From positions 1 through 64,000 of the forward strand of contig JAFSCE010000032.1 of assembly GCA_017436915.1 (NCBI GenBank): a stretch of DNA of 64,000 bases, read 5' to 3'. The notes under the pieces are model-generated. The model had not been told where the DNA came from. It did not search any database and saw nothing but the letters and a program-made list of their open reading frames with translations. This DNA comes from Clostridia bacterium (GTDB taxonomy: Bacteria; Bacillota; Clostridia; Oscillospirales; Acutalibacteraceae). Below are positions 28,487 through 62,433 of the stretch, in pieces. The translations under genes were made by a program, and so were the position numbers. How positions within the stretch are numbered: position 1 is the first letter of the stretch; the number at the start of each line of letters is the position of its first letter.

Positions 28487-29839
28487 ATGAAACGATTGTT
28501 ACGCCGCACATCTGCGGTATTGTTGGGAATATGCTTGTTACTCGCGGCGTTTCCCGTTGCGGGTGCCGAACTGCGGTATGAATACCCCGCTGACGAGGAT
28601 CCGATCGAATCCCCTTCCGCGGTGATGCTATATATGGGTGTCAAAGCGGAGCAGGATGTGTATCTGTATGAAAAAGATGCCGACACGCGATACGAGCCGG
28701 GCGCACTGATGCGCGTGGCAATGCTCGGGTATGCCATGCACCTTATTGAGGAACAGCAAATCGATATGGATACCGCGACCGGCACCTATACCTTGGAACT
28801 GTTTAACCACTACGTGGCGGGAACGGGACTTCACGTGGCGCTGATGGGATTCGGTGAGACGTGGAAGCTTCGCGATCTGCTCACGCTTTGTGCCATCCAA
28901 ACCGCCGCCGATTGTGCGGTGACACTCGCGGCGGCACTCAGCGGCACTCCGGACGCCTTTGTGGAGGGACTCAATCTCTATGCGGCAGAGCTTGGCTGTA
29001 AAAACTCTCATTTCACCAACGTCGTGGGTCTTAATGAAGAAGGTCAATATATGTCTGCAAGGGATGCGGCGATACTATCCCGTGCGGCAATGCAGTATAC
29101 GGGAGTGCGGGACGCACTGGAGTTGACACAATATACTGTCACCCCCGTTTCTGGTGGGAAAACGCGTAGTTGGCCGACCAGCTGTGATTTTATCCGCCAG
29201 TCGTCGGAGGCGTATTACACCTATGCACTCGGCGGTAAAACCGGCGGCACTTTAACCGAGATGTCGCTGATGGCGTTCGGTGGGAACAACGGCTATGAAT
29301 ACATGGCGATCGTGATGGGCGCCCCCCGCAAGGACAAGGACGACAATTTGACCAACATTGCCTATGCCGATGCACGGCGTTTGATCCGTTGGGGGTTGCT
29401 GGATTTTCGCTATGAAACACTTGCCCGCAAAAACGAGCCGGTCGGCCGCATCACCGTGCGCGACTCCGCCGAGCGAAGCAGTGTCAGCTTGGTGCCGGTG
29501 CGCGATCTTGCCGCCGTGCTCGGTGAATCGGTCAAGAGTGAGGATATCACGCGGCGGGTGGTCACAACAGAAGAGGAATGTGTCGCCCCGATCGAGGCGG
29601 GACAGGTGCTTGGCACGCTGGAGTTATACCTCGGCGAAGAATTGGTTGGCTCGATACCGGTCGCGGCAGGCGAAAACGCCTCGCGCAGTTTTTTGTATGC
29701 CGCGTGGTGCGACGTTCGTGATTTTCTGTTTTCGGGTTGGACGTTGGCAATTCTCATCATTCTTCTGTTGGCGGTGGTGGGCTACGTGGTCCTCAATGTC
29801 CAATACAACAAAAAACGTCGGCGCAAATGGCGAAGCTAA
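28487..29839 (+). CDS. Secreted D,D-carboxypeptidase-like protein (S11), probably inactive
   Basis: Protein of 450 aa with a signal peptide (residues 1-27), a penicillin-binding S11 peptidase-like domain (about 40-310), a DacF-type C-terminal region and a membrane helix at the C-terminus (about 414-436) with a basic tail. The fold-level pattern is clear (SHFTNVVGLNEEGQYMSARDAAILSRAA). Catalytic motifs are degraded: the SxxK site reads ALMR (73-76) and the SxN site reads TAA (139-141), while KTG at 250-252 is kept. It therefore lacks both the serine nucleophile and the general-base lysine. It may bind peptidoglycan or act as a regulator; enzyme activity is unlikely. Confidence 0.85.
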   Translation: MKRLLRRTSAVLLGICLLLAAFPVAGAELRYEYPADEDPIESPSAVMLYMGVKAEQDVYLYEKDADTRYEPGALMRVAMLGYAMHLIEEQQIDMDTATGTYTLELFNHYVAGTGLHVALMGFGETWKLRDLLTLCAIQTAADCAVTLAAALSGTPDAFVEGLNLYAAELGCKNSHFTNVVGLNEEGQYMSARDAAILSRAAMQYTGVRDALELTQYTVTPVSGGKTRSWPTSCDFIRQSSEAYYTYALGGKTGGTLTEMSLMAFGGNNGYEYMAIVMGAPRKDKDDNLTNIAYADARRLIRWGLLDFRYETLARKNEPVGRITVRDSAERSSVSLVPVRDLAAVLGESVKSEDITRRVVTTEEECVAPIEAGQVLGTLELYLGEELVGSIPVAAGENASRSFLYAAWCDVRDFLFSGWTLAILIILLLAVVGYVVLNVQYNKKRRRKWRS

Positions 29840-57672: not shown

Positions 57673-57710
57673 AGAACCCCACGTCAATTACTGACGTGGG
57701 GTTCTCTTTT
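57673..57710 (+). terminator. Terminator after nifJ
   Basis: A 14-bp perfect stem (57673-57686 with 57692-57705) and a T-rich tail. Confidence 0.93.
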
Positions 57711-57735: not shown

Positions 57736-57764
57736 TTGCCTTTTTTCTCAGTTCATGATAAAAT
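57736..57764 (+). promoter_or_regulatory. Promoter of the moxR operon
   Basis: TTGCCT (57736-57741), 17 bp, TAAAAT (57759-57764), 37 bases upstream of the moxR ATG. Confidence 0.6.
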
Positions 57765-57801: not shown

Positions 57802-58746
57802 ATGGGAAAGAATTATTATCAGCTTGCTCTTGACATTCAGGAGCAGATCAAAACCGTCGTTTTGGGAAAAGATGCGGTTATCAATAAGATTCTTGCCGCG
57901 ACCTTAGCAGGAGGACACGTTCTGCTTGACGATATTCCCGGCGTCGGAAAAACGACGTTGGCGCTTGCTTTTTCCCGCGCAACGAGCATGGATTATCACC
58001 GGCTTCAGTTCACGCCCGACGTCCTCCCTACCGACGTGACGGGCTTTACGATCTACGACAAGAAAACGGATGCGTTTCAGTATAAAGAGGGCGTTGCGTT
58101 CTGCAACTTGTTTCTGGCTGACGAGATCAACAGAACGTCGTCAAAGACCCAATCGGCGCTTCTGGAATTGATGGAAGAAGGTAAGATCACCGTTGACGGC
58201 GTGGTGCATCCGTTGCCCGATCCGTACGTCGTTATCGCGACGGAAAATCCGATTGGTTCCGTTGGTACGCAAATGCTGCCCGACTCACAGCTTGACCGTT
58301 TTATGGTATGCGTTTCCATGGGGTACCCCTCGATTGCGGACGAGGTGGCCATCTTAAAGGATCGGCAAGATCAAAATCCGCTTGAGACTGTGCAAGCTGT
58401 TGCTAACAAAGACGATATCAAGGCCATGCGCGAGAGCGTTAAGAGTGTTTATATGCACGACAAAATATACGATTACATTGCCGCCATTGCAGACGAGACC
58501 CGCAAAAACGAAATGTTTAAGCTCGGCCTTAGTCCGCGCGGAACGCTCACGCTTGCCAGAATTTCGCGTGCCGTTGCCTTCTTGCGCGGCAGAGATTTTG
58601 TGATTCCCGATGATATTGCTTACATATTCCGCGACGTGGCGGCTCACCGTGTCGTGCTGAGCCCCAAAGCAAAAATTTCCGGTCTTTCGATGGACGATAT
58701 TTTGACAAGTGTACTTGAGAAGGTTCCGGTACCGAAGCTGTCATAA
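57802..58746 (+). CDS. MoxR-family AAA+ ATPase
   Basis: Cytosolic AAA+ ATPase (314 aa) of the MoxR family, thought to act as a chaperone for partner proteins of the DUF58/von Willebrand type. Walker A is DIPGVGKTTLALAF (about residues 45-58), Walker B NLFLADEINRTSSKTQSALL (about 106-125), with the lid domain at 200-314. The start at 57802 follows AAGGAG; the reading frame extends upstream through the promoter. It is the first gene of a three-gene set with DUF58 and transglutaminase-like membrane proteins, a conserved association. Confidence 0.94.
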   Translation: MGKNYYQLALDIQEQIKTVVLGKDAVINKILAATLAGGHVLLDDIPGVGKTTLALAFSRATSMDYHRLQFTPDVLPTDVTGFTIYDKKTDAFQYKEGVAFCNLFLADEINRTSSKTQSALLELMEEGKITVDGVVHPLPDPYVVIATENPIGSVGTQMLPDSQLDRFMVCVSMGYPSIADEVAILKDRQDQNPLETVQAVANKDDIKAMRESVKSVYMHDKIYDYIAAIADETRKNEMFKLGLSPRGTLTLARISRAVAFLRGRDFVIPDDIAYIFRDVAAHRVVLSPKAKISGLSMDDILTSVLEKVPVPKLS

Positions 58747-58758
58747 GGAAGAGAATAA

Positions 58759-59943
58759 ATGACAAAAGAAAAGCTTATTTATTTGGTGGTCGCTGTTGTT
58801 TCGGGCGTGTTTTTTGTCCTTTATCGCGACATGCTTGCGCTCGTTTTGTTTTTGGTTATTTTAGCGATACCTTTCCTGCTTTTTTTCATTACCGTTTTGA
58901 TGCGTTTGGGCGTTCGCGTTCGAGTGGAGACCGATCGCACGGTGTATTCCGGTGAGGAAACGGCAACGGTATCGCTTGAAATTTCCAACTATTCCCTATT
59001 GCCTGTTTCGCAAATAACAGTGTTTGCCAATTACAAAAACGCATTCTTTAAACATTACGATGTCGGTGAGTTTCAGTTCTTTGCGCCGCCGCTTTCGAAA
59101 AACCGCTACGAAATCGAGATCCGATCGCGCCACGCGGGAAAAATTGACGTTTTCTTTAAGAAAGCGCGAGTTTTCGATTATTTCGGTGTGTTTTCACTTC
59201 CGATAAGGATGAAAAAGCACGTGTCTGTCTCGTTTTTGCCGCGGGTACATTCTATTGAGCCGACCTTACGCAAGAACACGTATACCGCCAGCGAGACCAA
59301 CTTGTATTCCCAACACAAGCCGGGTGATGATCCGACAGAGATCTTTGCCATCCGTGAGTACGTTGATGGAGACAAACTTAGCAGAATTCACTGGAAATTA
59401 ACCTCAAAGCAAGATAAATATATGGTCAAGGATTACAGTTTGCCGATAAACGAAGCGGTACTCATTTTGCCCGAGCTTGTTTTTGATGAAGGGAACGAAA
59501 CCAATCTTGACCTCATTGACTCGGTTTTAGAAATTGCCTTTTCCCTGTCGCACACCTTGATCGAACGCAAAACGTTGCATGCGATCGGTTATTATAACGC
59601 CGAAGTGGACAAGGTTTGTGTGCAAAAGATAGGCGATCTTGACGATCTCTATTCCGTGTTCGGGGAGATCTTCAATACGTCGACGTACTACAGCAACCCC
59701 GTTTTAGCAAATATGGATCCCGAATTGCAGCAGAACATGTCGCACGTTGTCTATATTTCCGCTAACGTGACGGAGGATCGGGGCAATGCGTTGTCAGCAG
59801 GCAAAAGCGAGGCGCTGCTCCACACGGTTATTAACGTCGTGGGCGAGGGTGCGCTTGATGCTGATGTTGGCGGCGAAGAGATTAACTGGATATCTGTGAA
59901 AAAAAGCGGTATTGCTTCGTCCCTTAACGAGGCGGTTTTATAG
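58759..59943 (+). CDS. DUF58 domain membrane protein
   Basis: Protein of 394 aa with two N-terminal membrane helices (about residues 7-25 and 28-50), a beta-rich extracellular or CARDB-like section and the DUF58 motif (KPGDDPTEIFAIREYVDGD, about 191-209, followed by IHWKLTSKQDKYMVKDY). DUF58 proteins resemble von Willebrand A domains and are usually encoded with a MoxR ATPase, as here, 12 bases downstream. Function in the envelope is inferred from family context only. Confidence 0.92.
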   Translation: MTKEKLIYLVVAVVSGVFFVLYRDMLALVLFLVILAIPFLLFFITVLMRLGVRVRVETDRTVYSGEETATVSLEISNYSLLPVSQITVFANYKNAFFKHYDVGEFQFFAPPLSKNRYEIEIRSRHAGKIDVFFKKARVFDYFGVFSLPIRMKKHVSVSFLPRVHSIEPTLRKNTYTASETNLYSQHKPGDDPTEIFAIREYVDGDKLSRIHWKLTSKQDKYMVKDYSLPINEAVLILPELVFDEGNETNLDLIDSVLEIAFSLSHTLIERKTLHAIGYYNAEVDKVCVQKIGDLDDLYSVFGEIFNTSTYYSNPVLANMDPELQQNMSHVVYISANVTEDRGNALSAGKSEALLHTVINVVGEGALDADVGGEEINWISVKKSGIASSLNEAVL

Positions 59944-59951
59944 GAGTTATC

Positions 59952-62354
59952 ATGAAAAACAAACGCAATCTTTCCGCCAACAACGGGGTATCACTCTCCT
60001 ATCGGGTTGACGTTAATGAACGGATCAAAATCCCGTTTTTTAACGAGATCTTGCTTACCCTGCTTGCCATAATGGCTTCCGTTGGCGCGATTATGACCTT
60101 TGCGACCATTTTGGACTTTACGGTTACGCCGAGCATTGTTATAGCGTTTATTGCGGCGTTTTCGGTCGCGTATACGGTTTTGTATAAACTTATTAAAAAA
60201 CGGCGCGCCTTGGTTATTGCGGGCGCGGTGGTTTTGGCGGGTCTCATAACACTTTTGTTCTTTAAGGACGTTTCAAAAGGTGCGGTTGTTATTTTTGACC
60301 AGTCGCGAGCCACCATCAGCAAGTATATGTTTTGGGATGCCGTTAAGCCGACTTACAAGTGGCGGGATGAATTTGTGTATCTCACCAATACGGTGACTGT
60401 TCTGTTGTCCCTGGTGCTTTGCTCCGCAATCAGTTATTTTACGGTGGTAAAGCAAAGCTTTATTGCCATTTTTCTCTTAACGTTTCCGTTCTTTGAGGTT
60501 GGTGCCGCGTTTGGTGCTGTCCCCCACTACCTGTATTTTTCGCTTATGCTGGCATCCTGGGCTTCCATGCTTACCGTTTCCAGGGCGGCCAACGCGAAAA
60601 TTAAGATGCGTCGTTCCAATGGTGAAAAGCAGAACGTAAAGGTTGGCGGGAACAAGCAGAAGTTCGCGGGGGTGGCGATTGTCGTTGCTGTTCTGGTCTT
60701 CTTTCTCTTTAGCGGGATAACGGCGTATCTCAATGCCGTTGGTTTTAGTCGTGCCGAGAATGTTGATAAGTTGCGACACGACACCAAGTATGCGTTTGCG
60801 GATCTTATAGACTATATCACCGGTAAAGACCACGACGGAAGTCTTAAAGAAGGCAGGCTTTACGAGGTTGACGACCGCATTATCAAAAACAGGCACTATA
60901 TTACCATGGAGACCACCATCAGTTCTACAAAGGAACCGATAAAGTTAAAAGGATATACGGCTACCATTTATAAAAACAATAGTTGGAATCAGACGGATGC
61001 GTACGAAAAGTACCAAACCATGTTTGATGAGTTTGCGAAGTCCGCTTATATGATGGGCGATGCTACGGGTCGATTGATTACCAGTAACCCTAAATTTGCG
61101 GGCGACTTTTTTACAGATATCACGCTCAGCAATTTCCGGCGCAAAAAGCCGTATGCGTATGCGACGTATTTTGCGAGTTTCACGGGTGATTATACTTCGG
61201 TCTACGATAATTACGCTGTTCCGCCTGATAACGATCAGTATACCTATCCCGCGTATCTTTGGGAAGACTATCTTTATATGGTGGCTGATTCGGTCGTGTA
61301 TAAGACGGAGGATTATCAAGCGGCCTATGCCAAATACAAGGACTTTGTCAACGAGGAGTATATTAAGTCGGAAGTGGCCGAATCGGTGCGTGCGTTGGCG
61401 ATGAGCTTTGAAGCATCGGATAAATTTGAGTATATCAATGCCATGCGTCCATTCCTCCAGCAAAATATGGAGCATACTTGGAAGTCCGGAAAATGCCCCA
61501 AAGACGTTGATTTTGTAGAAAATTTCCTTTTTAACACCAAGGTCGGCTACAGCACACATTTTGCCACCGCCGCCGCGGTGCTGTTGCAGGCACGAGGATA
61601 TCCCGCGCGCTATGTTGAGGGCTACTACATCCCTGCCGAAGTTTTTAACAAAACGGAGTCAGATCGTGTAGAAGAGTATAAGACGATCGATATCACCGAC
61701 ATGTATGCGCACGCTTGGGTGGAAGTTTTTGATGACATATACGGTTGGATTCCGGTGGAAGTGACGCCCGGATATTGGAAAGGGGATTTCGGTGGCCCTC
61801 AAGCGGGTGGGCTGGAGAAGCCGGAGCCTGACGCGCCTGAAGTGCCTGAGCAGCTGCCTACGGATTTTGAGATCGTCGAAGATGAGGTCGAAAACGAGGT
61901 TGCCGACGAACCGTTTGAACCAACAACAATCCGTTGGCCATGGGAGGTTGTGCCGATTGCGGTAGCCGCGGCCGTTGTGGCCTTTTGCGTGTATCGCCTT
62001 GTCATTGCGGTCTCAAAAAGACGGGTTTACGCTTCGCGCGACATTGACAAAAAACTGAAGTTTGCGCACAAGTGGCTGGTGTCGCTGGCGACATATCAAA
62101 AAATCCCTGTTGGCAATGTCTACGATCACATGGAGTTTGCCAAACGCGTGGGCGGCGCGGGTCGCTATATTACGACGGAGACGGTCGAACGCATTTTAAA
62201 CGTGTTTTTGAAACACGCTTACTCCCGCACCCCTGCTACGTTAGAGGAAGCAAACGAGGTGTTAAGCGGGTTGCGCGACTACTCGCGCGCAATCTACGCG
62301 AGTTTGTCAAAACCCAAAAAGTGGGCGTACAGACACTTGCGGAATCTGTATTAA
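59952..62354 (+). CDS. Transglutaminase-like membrane protein, catalytic Cys replaced by Ser
   Basis: Large membrane protein (800 aa) with about six N-terminal membrane helices (residues 28-275), an extracellular section, a transglutaminase-like domain (about 490-615), another membrane helix (about 664-686) and a cytosolic DUF4129-like tail. The domain is clear from KVGYSTHFATAAAVLLQARG, then PARYVEGY, MYAHAWVEVFDD and IPVEVTP. The canonical catalytic Cys of the GxCxxFA motif is Ser534 (codon AGC at 61551-61553), the His is kept (His587), and the third residue is Glu603 where Asp is usual. Peptidase or transamidase activity by the usual mechanism is therefore doubtful. It ends the moxR operon at a strong terminator. 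Confidence 0.9.
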   Translation: MKNKRNLSANNGVSLSYRVDVNERIKIPFFNEILLTLLAIMASVGAIMTFATILDFTVTPSIVIAFIAAFSVAYTVLYKLIKKRRALVIAGAVVLAGLITLLFFKDVSKGAVVIFDQSRATISKYMFWDAVKPTYKWRDEFVYLTNTVTVLLSLVLCSAISYFTVVKQSFIAIFLLTFPFFEVGAAFGAVPHYLYFSLMLASWASMLTVSRAANAKIKMRRSNGEKQNVKVGGNKQKFAGVAIVVAVLVFFLFSGITAYLNAVGFSRAENVDKLRHDTKYAFADLIDYITGKDHDGSLKEGRLYEVDDRIIKNRHYITMETTISSTKEPIKLKGYTATIYKNNSWNQTDAYEKYQTMFDEFAKSAYMMGDATGRLITSNPKFAGDFFTDITLSNFRRKKPYAYATYFASFTGDYTSVYDNYAVPPDNDQYTYPAYLWEDYLYMVADSVVYKTEDYQAAYAKYKDFVNEEYIKSEVAESVRALAMSFEASDKFEYINAMRPFLQQNMEHTWKSGKCPKDVDFVENFLFNTKVGYSTHFATAAAVLLQARGYPARYVEGYYIPAEVFNKTESDRVEEYKTIDITDMYAHAWVEVFDDIYGWIPVEVTPGYWKGDFGGPQAGGLEKPEPDAPEVPEQLPTDFEIVEDEVENEVADEPFEPTTIRWPWEVVPIAVAAAVVAFCVYRLVIAVSKRRVYASRDIDKKLKFAHKWLVSLATYQKIPVGNVYDHMEFAKRVGGAGRYITTETVERILNVFLKHAYSRTPATLEEANEVLSGLRDYSRAIYASLSKPKKWAYRHLRNLY

Positions 62355-62396: not shown

Positions 62397-62433
62397 GAGC
62401 CGTTCGCGAAGCGCGGGCGGCTCTTCTCTTTTT
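62397..62433 (+). terminator. Terminator of the moxR operon
   Basis: A 12-bp stem with two G-U pairs (62397-62408 with 62412-62423), AAG loop and a TTCTCTTTTT tail, 43 bases after the transglutaminase stop. Confidence 0.88.

Follow-up and report, generated by a model that had tools for sequence, protein, structure and literature searches.

A TgpA-like membrane protein of a gut clostridium has serine at the catalytic cysteine site of its transglutaminase-like domain: one of several independent losses of the nucleophile among MoxR-linked proteins of Clostridia

The last gene of a moxR, DUF58 and tgpA-like unit in a gut clostridium encodes a membrane protein whose extracytoplasmic transglutaminase-like domain carries Ser at the position of the catalytic Cys. 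This change is not peculiar to one genome: the Cys has been lost independently several times among the MoxR-linked TgpA-like proteins of Clostridia. We somewhat favour the view that the protein is a pseudo-transglutaminase, acting as a ligand-binding module without turnover, and, judging from the relatives described below, part of the widespread TgpA-like family probably serves for binding, or as a serine-based enzyme, and not as a classical transglutaminase. The window to which all coordinates refer (Table 1) is the whole stretch of DNA that was analysed, 64,000 nt of Clostridia bacterium (Acutalibacteraceae) GCA_017436915.1, contig JAFSCE010000032.1.

Table 1. Features of the window discussed in the text.
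Feature	Coordinates	Strand	Basis or remark
D-Ala-D-Ala carboxypeptidase-like protein	28487-29839	+	PF00768 (Peptidase_S11) and PF07943 (PBP5_C)
Terminator-like hairpin closing the preceding gene	57673-57705	+	Sequence
MoxR-type AAA+ ATPase (AAA_3 and AAA_lid_2)	57802-58746	+	PF07726, E 4e-52; PF17863, E 1e-22
DUF58 protein	58759-59943	+	PF01882, E 0.0012, under the cut-off; clear by similarity to sister operons
TgpA-like membrane protein, extracytoplasmic transglutaminase-like domain, Cys nucleophile replaced by Ser	59952-62354	+	ORF of 800 aa
Transglut_core domain, residues 487-603	61407-61760	+	Pfam PF01841, 62-66 bits, E 6e-17 to 3e-18
Ser534 (AGC), at the catalytic Cys position of Transglut_core	61551-61553	+	Alignment and codon reading
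His587 (CAC), triad His	61710-61712	+	Unchanged in all clade X and Y proteins that lack the Cys
Glu603 (GAA), third triad residue	61758-61760	+	Glu also in most Cys-bearing relatives
Terminator-like hairpin between the three-gene unit and a ParA-like ORF	62397-62423	+	Sequence

The three genes lie on one strand in the order moxR, DUF58 and tgpA-like, separated by 12 and 8 bases, which bears out the association with MoxR and DUF58 partners proposed in an earlier, sequence-only reading of this DNA. RBS-like sequences (AGGAG or AGGAAG) are found upstream of all three starts, the tgpA-like ATG being preceded by AGGAG; for moxR, the ATG at 57802, which also follows AGGAG, is the likely start and was preferred over the TTG at 57736. 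The DUF58 protein shares 29-67% identity with the products of the middle genes in the operons of clade X, the group of relatives to which the window protein belongs. The tgpA-like ORF (59952-62354) encodes N-terminal hydrophobic segments, a long hydrophilic region that bears the domain and a C-terminal hydrophobic segment. Its Transglut_core match stands above the curated PF01841 cut-off of 23 bits, while the match to TgpA_N (PF11992) at residues 39-258 reaches 23.9 bits, under the cut-off of 30. A profile search of the organism's own genome found no Cys-bearing TgpA paralogue that could cover for the Ser protein; the one other Transglut_core protein encoded there is small and lipoprotein-like, with a different architecture.

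Both the AGC codon and the alignment with Pseudomonas TgpA confirmed that Ser534 lies exactly at the Cys site of the family, the window motif being GYSTHFA where the family has GYCxHFA. His587 is found within AHAWVE and Glu603 within WIPVEVTPG. The core motifs RYxEGY and HAW are retained under purifying selection, in agreement with the earlier statement that the His and the fold motifs are well kept. When the protein was compared with the PDB by phmmer, TgpA (6g49/6g4h) was the closest solved structure by sequence (E 2e-8); its Cys and His face Ser534 and His587, and its triad Asp closes this aligned block, opposite Glu603. The Ser-His-Glu geometry of the window protein is taken solely from this sequence alignment with TgpA, and AlphaFold2, run on the ectodomain and on the core with only three near-identical sequences as input, gave models with mean pLDDT values of 31 and 40, too low to be used. 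The Glu in place of Asp had been regarded as a second anomaly of the site, a view that was rejected: among the 154 Cys-bearing relatives surveyed, 118 have Glu as the third residue, 35 have Asp and one has Asn, so that Glu603, being the majority state alongside Cys, is ordinary.

It had been suggested that an alignment of relatives would reveal whether Ser is fixed, and within the genus it is. The gene is present in three of the nine genomes of the window's genus, one of them having two copies, and all four gene copies, from three assemblies, carry Ser as AGC, the orthologues being 92, 87 and 61% identical to the window protein (range 61-92%). Ser is also found in two other genera. Since Ser occurs in all four genus copies and beyond the genus, it is neither a strain quirk nor a sequencing error, and an error of sequencing or assembly in the window genome can be given a negligible probability. 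The sequence-only reading had held that Cys in relatives would point to such an error or to a strain-specific mutation; the close relatives are all Ser, whereas most of the wider family has Cys, and the genus has one Cys protein (L081) as its sister. The related-locus search recovered the same two near copies, both from the goat-rectum MAG RGIG3123 (L036 and L037, on short contigs, 92% and 87% identical to the window's), which represent either two strains binned together or a genuine duplication.

For a wider view, 187 distinct TgpA-like proteins of Clostridia were collected by searches at the levels of family, order and class and from stretches taken by place; because resemblance to the window protein and membership of genera of interest guided the collection, its counts are not population frequencies. 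The nucleophile position is occupied by Cys in 154 of these proteins, Ser in 25, Asp in four, Asn in two and Ala in two, so the residue that replaces Cys across independent lineages is always small. Among 60 loci picked before the state of the residue was known, five are non-Cys (L162, L170, L183, L184 and L185). The catalytic His is kept in every Cys protein and in 31 of the 33 non-Cys proteins, including all eight with Ala, Asp or Asn, none of which has Cys or Ser at the nucleophile site. In L056 and L057, which have Ser for Cys, the His is also gone (Phe or Tyr in its place), and these represent fully decayed sites within the same family. All three genes of the operon are present and in order in 24 of the 25 loci read with wide flanks, all of which come from clades X and Y apart from one additional Ser row; in the exceptional locus, L240, only DUF58 and tgpA lie within the stretch read. 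A linked loss of the metal site in the DUF58 partner was also considered and rejected, as the DxSxS motif is absent from every DUF58 stretch read, beside Cys and non-Cys TgpA-like genes alike, and the DUF58 metal site therefore shows no correlation with Cys loss.

The history of the site was followed on a tree of 93 proteins from which the nucleophile column had been removed. This tree, which was built quickly under a single-profile model and has long deep branches, requires no fewer than seven Cys/non-Cys switches, six of them forced by well-supported branches, and 12 residue-level changes are counted at the nucleophile position. Clade X, formed by the window's genus (g1) and genera g50 and g92, holds 11 Ser proteins, one with Ala and one with Cys (by locus, L081/L246 Cys and L083/L244 Ala, the others Ser, with L082, L126 and L127). 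The Cys protein L081 is placed as the sister of g1 with a support of 98-100, and forcing the non-Cys rows of clade X together without it was rejected (AU p 0.001). The codon at the site is AGC in g1, TCN in g50 and g92 and TGC in L081; AGC and TCN are two steps apart, via Cys or Thr. By tree and codons together, clade X acquired its Ser on more than one occasion, because a Cys protein is the sister of the AGC genus, a single Ser clade is rejected and the Ser codons are of two kinds. Either g1 and the other lineages exchanged Cys for Ser separately, or an ancestral Ser encoded by TCN went to Cys and then to Ser encoded by AGC. L081 comes from genus g92, yet it stands apart from the other g92 proteins, so that paralogy or transfer seems to be involved; a return to Cys is a further explanation. 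In the genus rows, a Cys within SGKCPKD, some 20 residues N-terminal to Ser534, was considered as a substitute nucleophile and dismissed, the matching stretch of the clade X relative L038 (KLPGDTD) having no Cys.

A second group, clade Y (support 100), gathers 17 non-Cys proteins from six families of the class, 11 with Ser, four with Asp, one with Ala and one with Asn, and includes one nested Cys genus group (g47); its genes also lie behind moxR and DUF58. The loci are L128, L129, L091, L184, L185, L080, L116, L130, L131, L133, L134, L162, L170, L040, L054, L097 and L183. This deep clade is a candidate pseudo-transglutaminase subfamily.

Compared with its two close copies, the window gene has a dN/dS of 0.12-0.18 overall and of 0.13-0.14 in the core, and this purifying selection indicates that it is not decaying. 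A rival explanation, that selection relaxed recently as a prelude to losing the operon and that a functionless domain persists by chance, would be in line with the presence of the gene in only three of nine genus genomes and with the Ser rows elsewhere that also lack the His; the missing copies may, however, partly reflect incomplete assemblies, the three-gene operon is intact, with RBS-like sites and terminators, the His and the acid are invariant over long trees, and the selection data largely refute this explanation, which is improbable. In the non-Cys proteins of clade Y, over a tree length of 18.3 substitutions per site and a median of seven changes per column, His587 undergoes no change and the acid switches only between Glu and Asp; over the roughly 5 substitutions per site of clade X, neither of the two changes. 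Among 115 columns, those that evolve faster in clade Y than in the Cys proteins are led by T605, P516, S534 and Y533 (the p-values derive from parsimony counts and are uncorrected for the 115 columns), and the acceleration of the nucleophile column and its neighbours has the pattern of lost catalysis. In clade X, G532, Y533, H536, R553, Y554, E556, H587, W589, E603 and T605 show no change, and no listed triad or motif column is faster, bar one change at P551 and the Ser-to-Ala exchange itself. From these rates, clade Y resembles an enzyme that has given up catalysis but kept its pocket, and the site of clade X looks intact except for the exchange of a single atom.

The pseudo-transglutaminase reading has the strongest support for the family as a whole and leads by a modest margin for the window protein. 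The chemistry at the nucleophile position is not conserved, given that Ser, Asp, Asn and Ala occur together in clade Y and Ser and Ala in clade X. In a protein of this kind the extracytoplasmic domain would no longer carry out Cys-based acyl transfer at a useful rate; the cleft would still bind the ancestral ligand outside the cell, perhaps a peptide or a wall-linked amine or acyl group, and the retained His and acid would serve to hold it. The bound or unbound state might then be passed via the membrane segments to DUF58 and MoxR inside the cell, the protein being a sensor or a structural part of a complex. Against this, the near-total conservation seen in clade X would equally be expected of a working triad, and Ala is found in only one clade X row (L083).

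Ser534, His587 and Glu603 could instead form a working serine triad, in a hydrolase or acyltransferase (amidase, esterase or slow transacylase) acting on envelope peptides, which we consider possible but clearly the less probable alternative. Every other active-site residue is invariant in clade X, where Ser was reached repeatedly, via AGC and via TCN, and Ser is the commonest replacement overall (25 of 33). Near the site, E556 is Glu in all rows of clades X and Y versus 39 of 60 Cys rows; for papain-like Cys-to-Ser variants, it has been proposed that greater negative charge at the site helps them stay active (PMC10318531). However, the frequency of Ser needs no selection for a nucleophile, since a single base change turns a Cys codon into a Ser codon; sister proteins with Ala, Asp or Asn at the site keep the same His and acid, and the tested Ser variants of another cysteine-enzyme family, OTUD4, are inactive. 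It is suggested still more tentatively that clade X as a whole may be a naturally evolved Ser-His-Glu enzyme of transglutaminase fold, derived from a Cys enzyme more than once (AGC, TCN), L081 perhaps having reverted from Ser to Cys. The sequence-only reading had offered a binding module or an unusual Ser hydrolase, which proved the correct pair, Ser being fixed, the operon present and the motifs selected; of the two, the Asp, Asn and Ala replacements favour the former, and the full conservation of the remaining site residues in clade X leaves room for the latter.

MoxR-DUF58-TgpA operons are widespread, and TgpA has been reported to be essential in Pseudomonas aeruginosa. Like P. aeruginosa TgpA (PA2873; DUF3488/TgpA_N and Transglut_core), the window protein is a membrane protein with an extracytoplasmic Transglut_core domain, and both are encoded by the third gene of their unit, which for TgpA is the co-transcribed PA2875-PA2874-PA2873 (PMC3507681). 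TgpA has a Cys-His-Asp triad and its fragment 180-544 possesses transglutaminase activity (PMC3507681), whereas the window protein has Ser-His-Glu and a TgpA_N match under the cut-off. The gene order is also that of the bifidobacterial PFNA cluster, aaa-atp (MoxR), duf58 and tgm, which, unlike the window unit, has linked pkb2 and fn3 genes and whose tgm product has been described as presumably a cysteine enzyme (PMC8430577).

A survey of papain-like enzymes reported Ser in place of Cys in five families or proteins, namely menin, PF09641 (2HLY), DUF2145, DUF2272 and DUF3750, and called their activity speculative (PMC10318531). As in those five, Ser replaces the catalytic Cys of the window protein and the other two active-site residues are kept; their Ser is a conserved family trait, whereas here Cys and Ser alternate within one family, and TgpA-like or Transglut_core proteins are missing from the Ser-for-Cys list of that survey. 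The closest precedent for a repeated Cys-to-Ser loss in a cysteine-enzyme family is that of the OTUD4 homologues of insects, in which the exchange has been recurrent and independent; two Drosophila OTUD4 proteins that were tested were inactive, and putting the Cys back did not restore activity (PMC4654579). The OTUD4 proteins differ in being eukaryotic deubiquitylases of another domain family, and in their case inactivity was assayed. EPB42 (protein 4.2) and FBXO21, both named in PMC10318531, have an inactive transglutaminase-like fold, as proposed here, but are human proteins without MoxR or DUF58 partners. No paper on Ser variants of TgpA-like proteins was found in the open-access literature. 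Natural relatives that have repeatedly lost the nucleophile but kept operon and cleft make it possible to test whether the transglutaminase reaction is needed or the domain is a receptor. Should the Ser forms be active, they would offer a rare example from nature of a cysteine enzyme that has become a serine enzyme, and clade X, if a Ser enzyme, would provide a natural series for this conversion.

Elsewhere in the window, the D-Ala-D-Ala carboxypeptidase-like protein at 28.5 kb had likewise been described as inactive, which is plausible from its motifs: read by eye, SxxK appears as ALMR and SxN as TAA, while KTG is kept.
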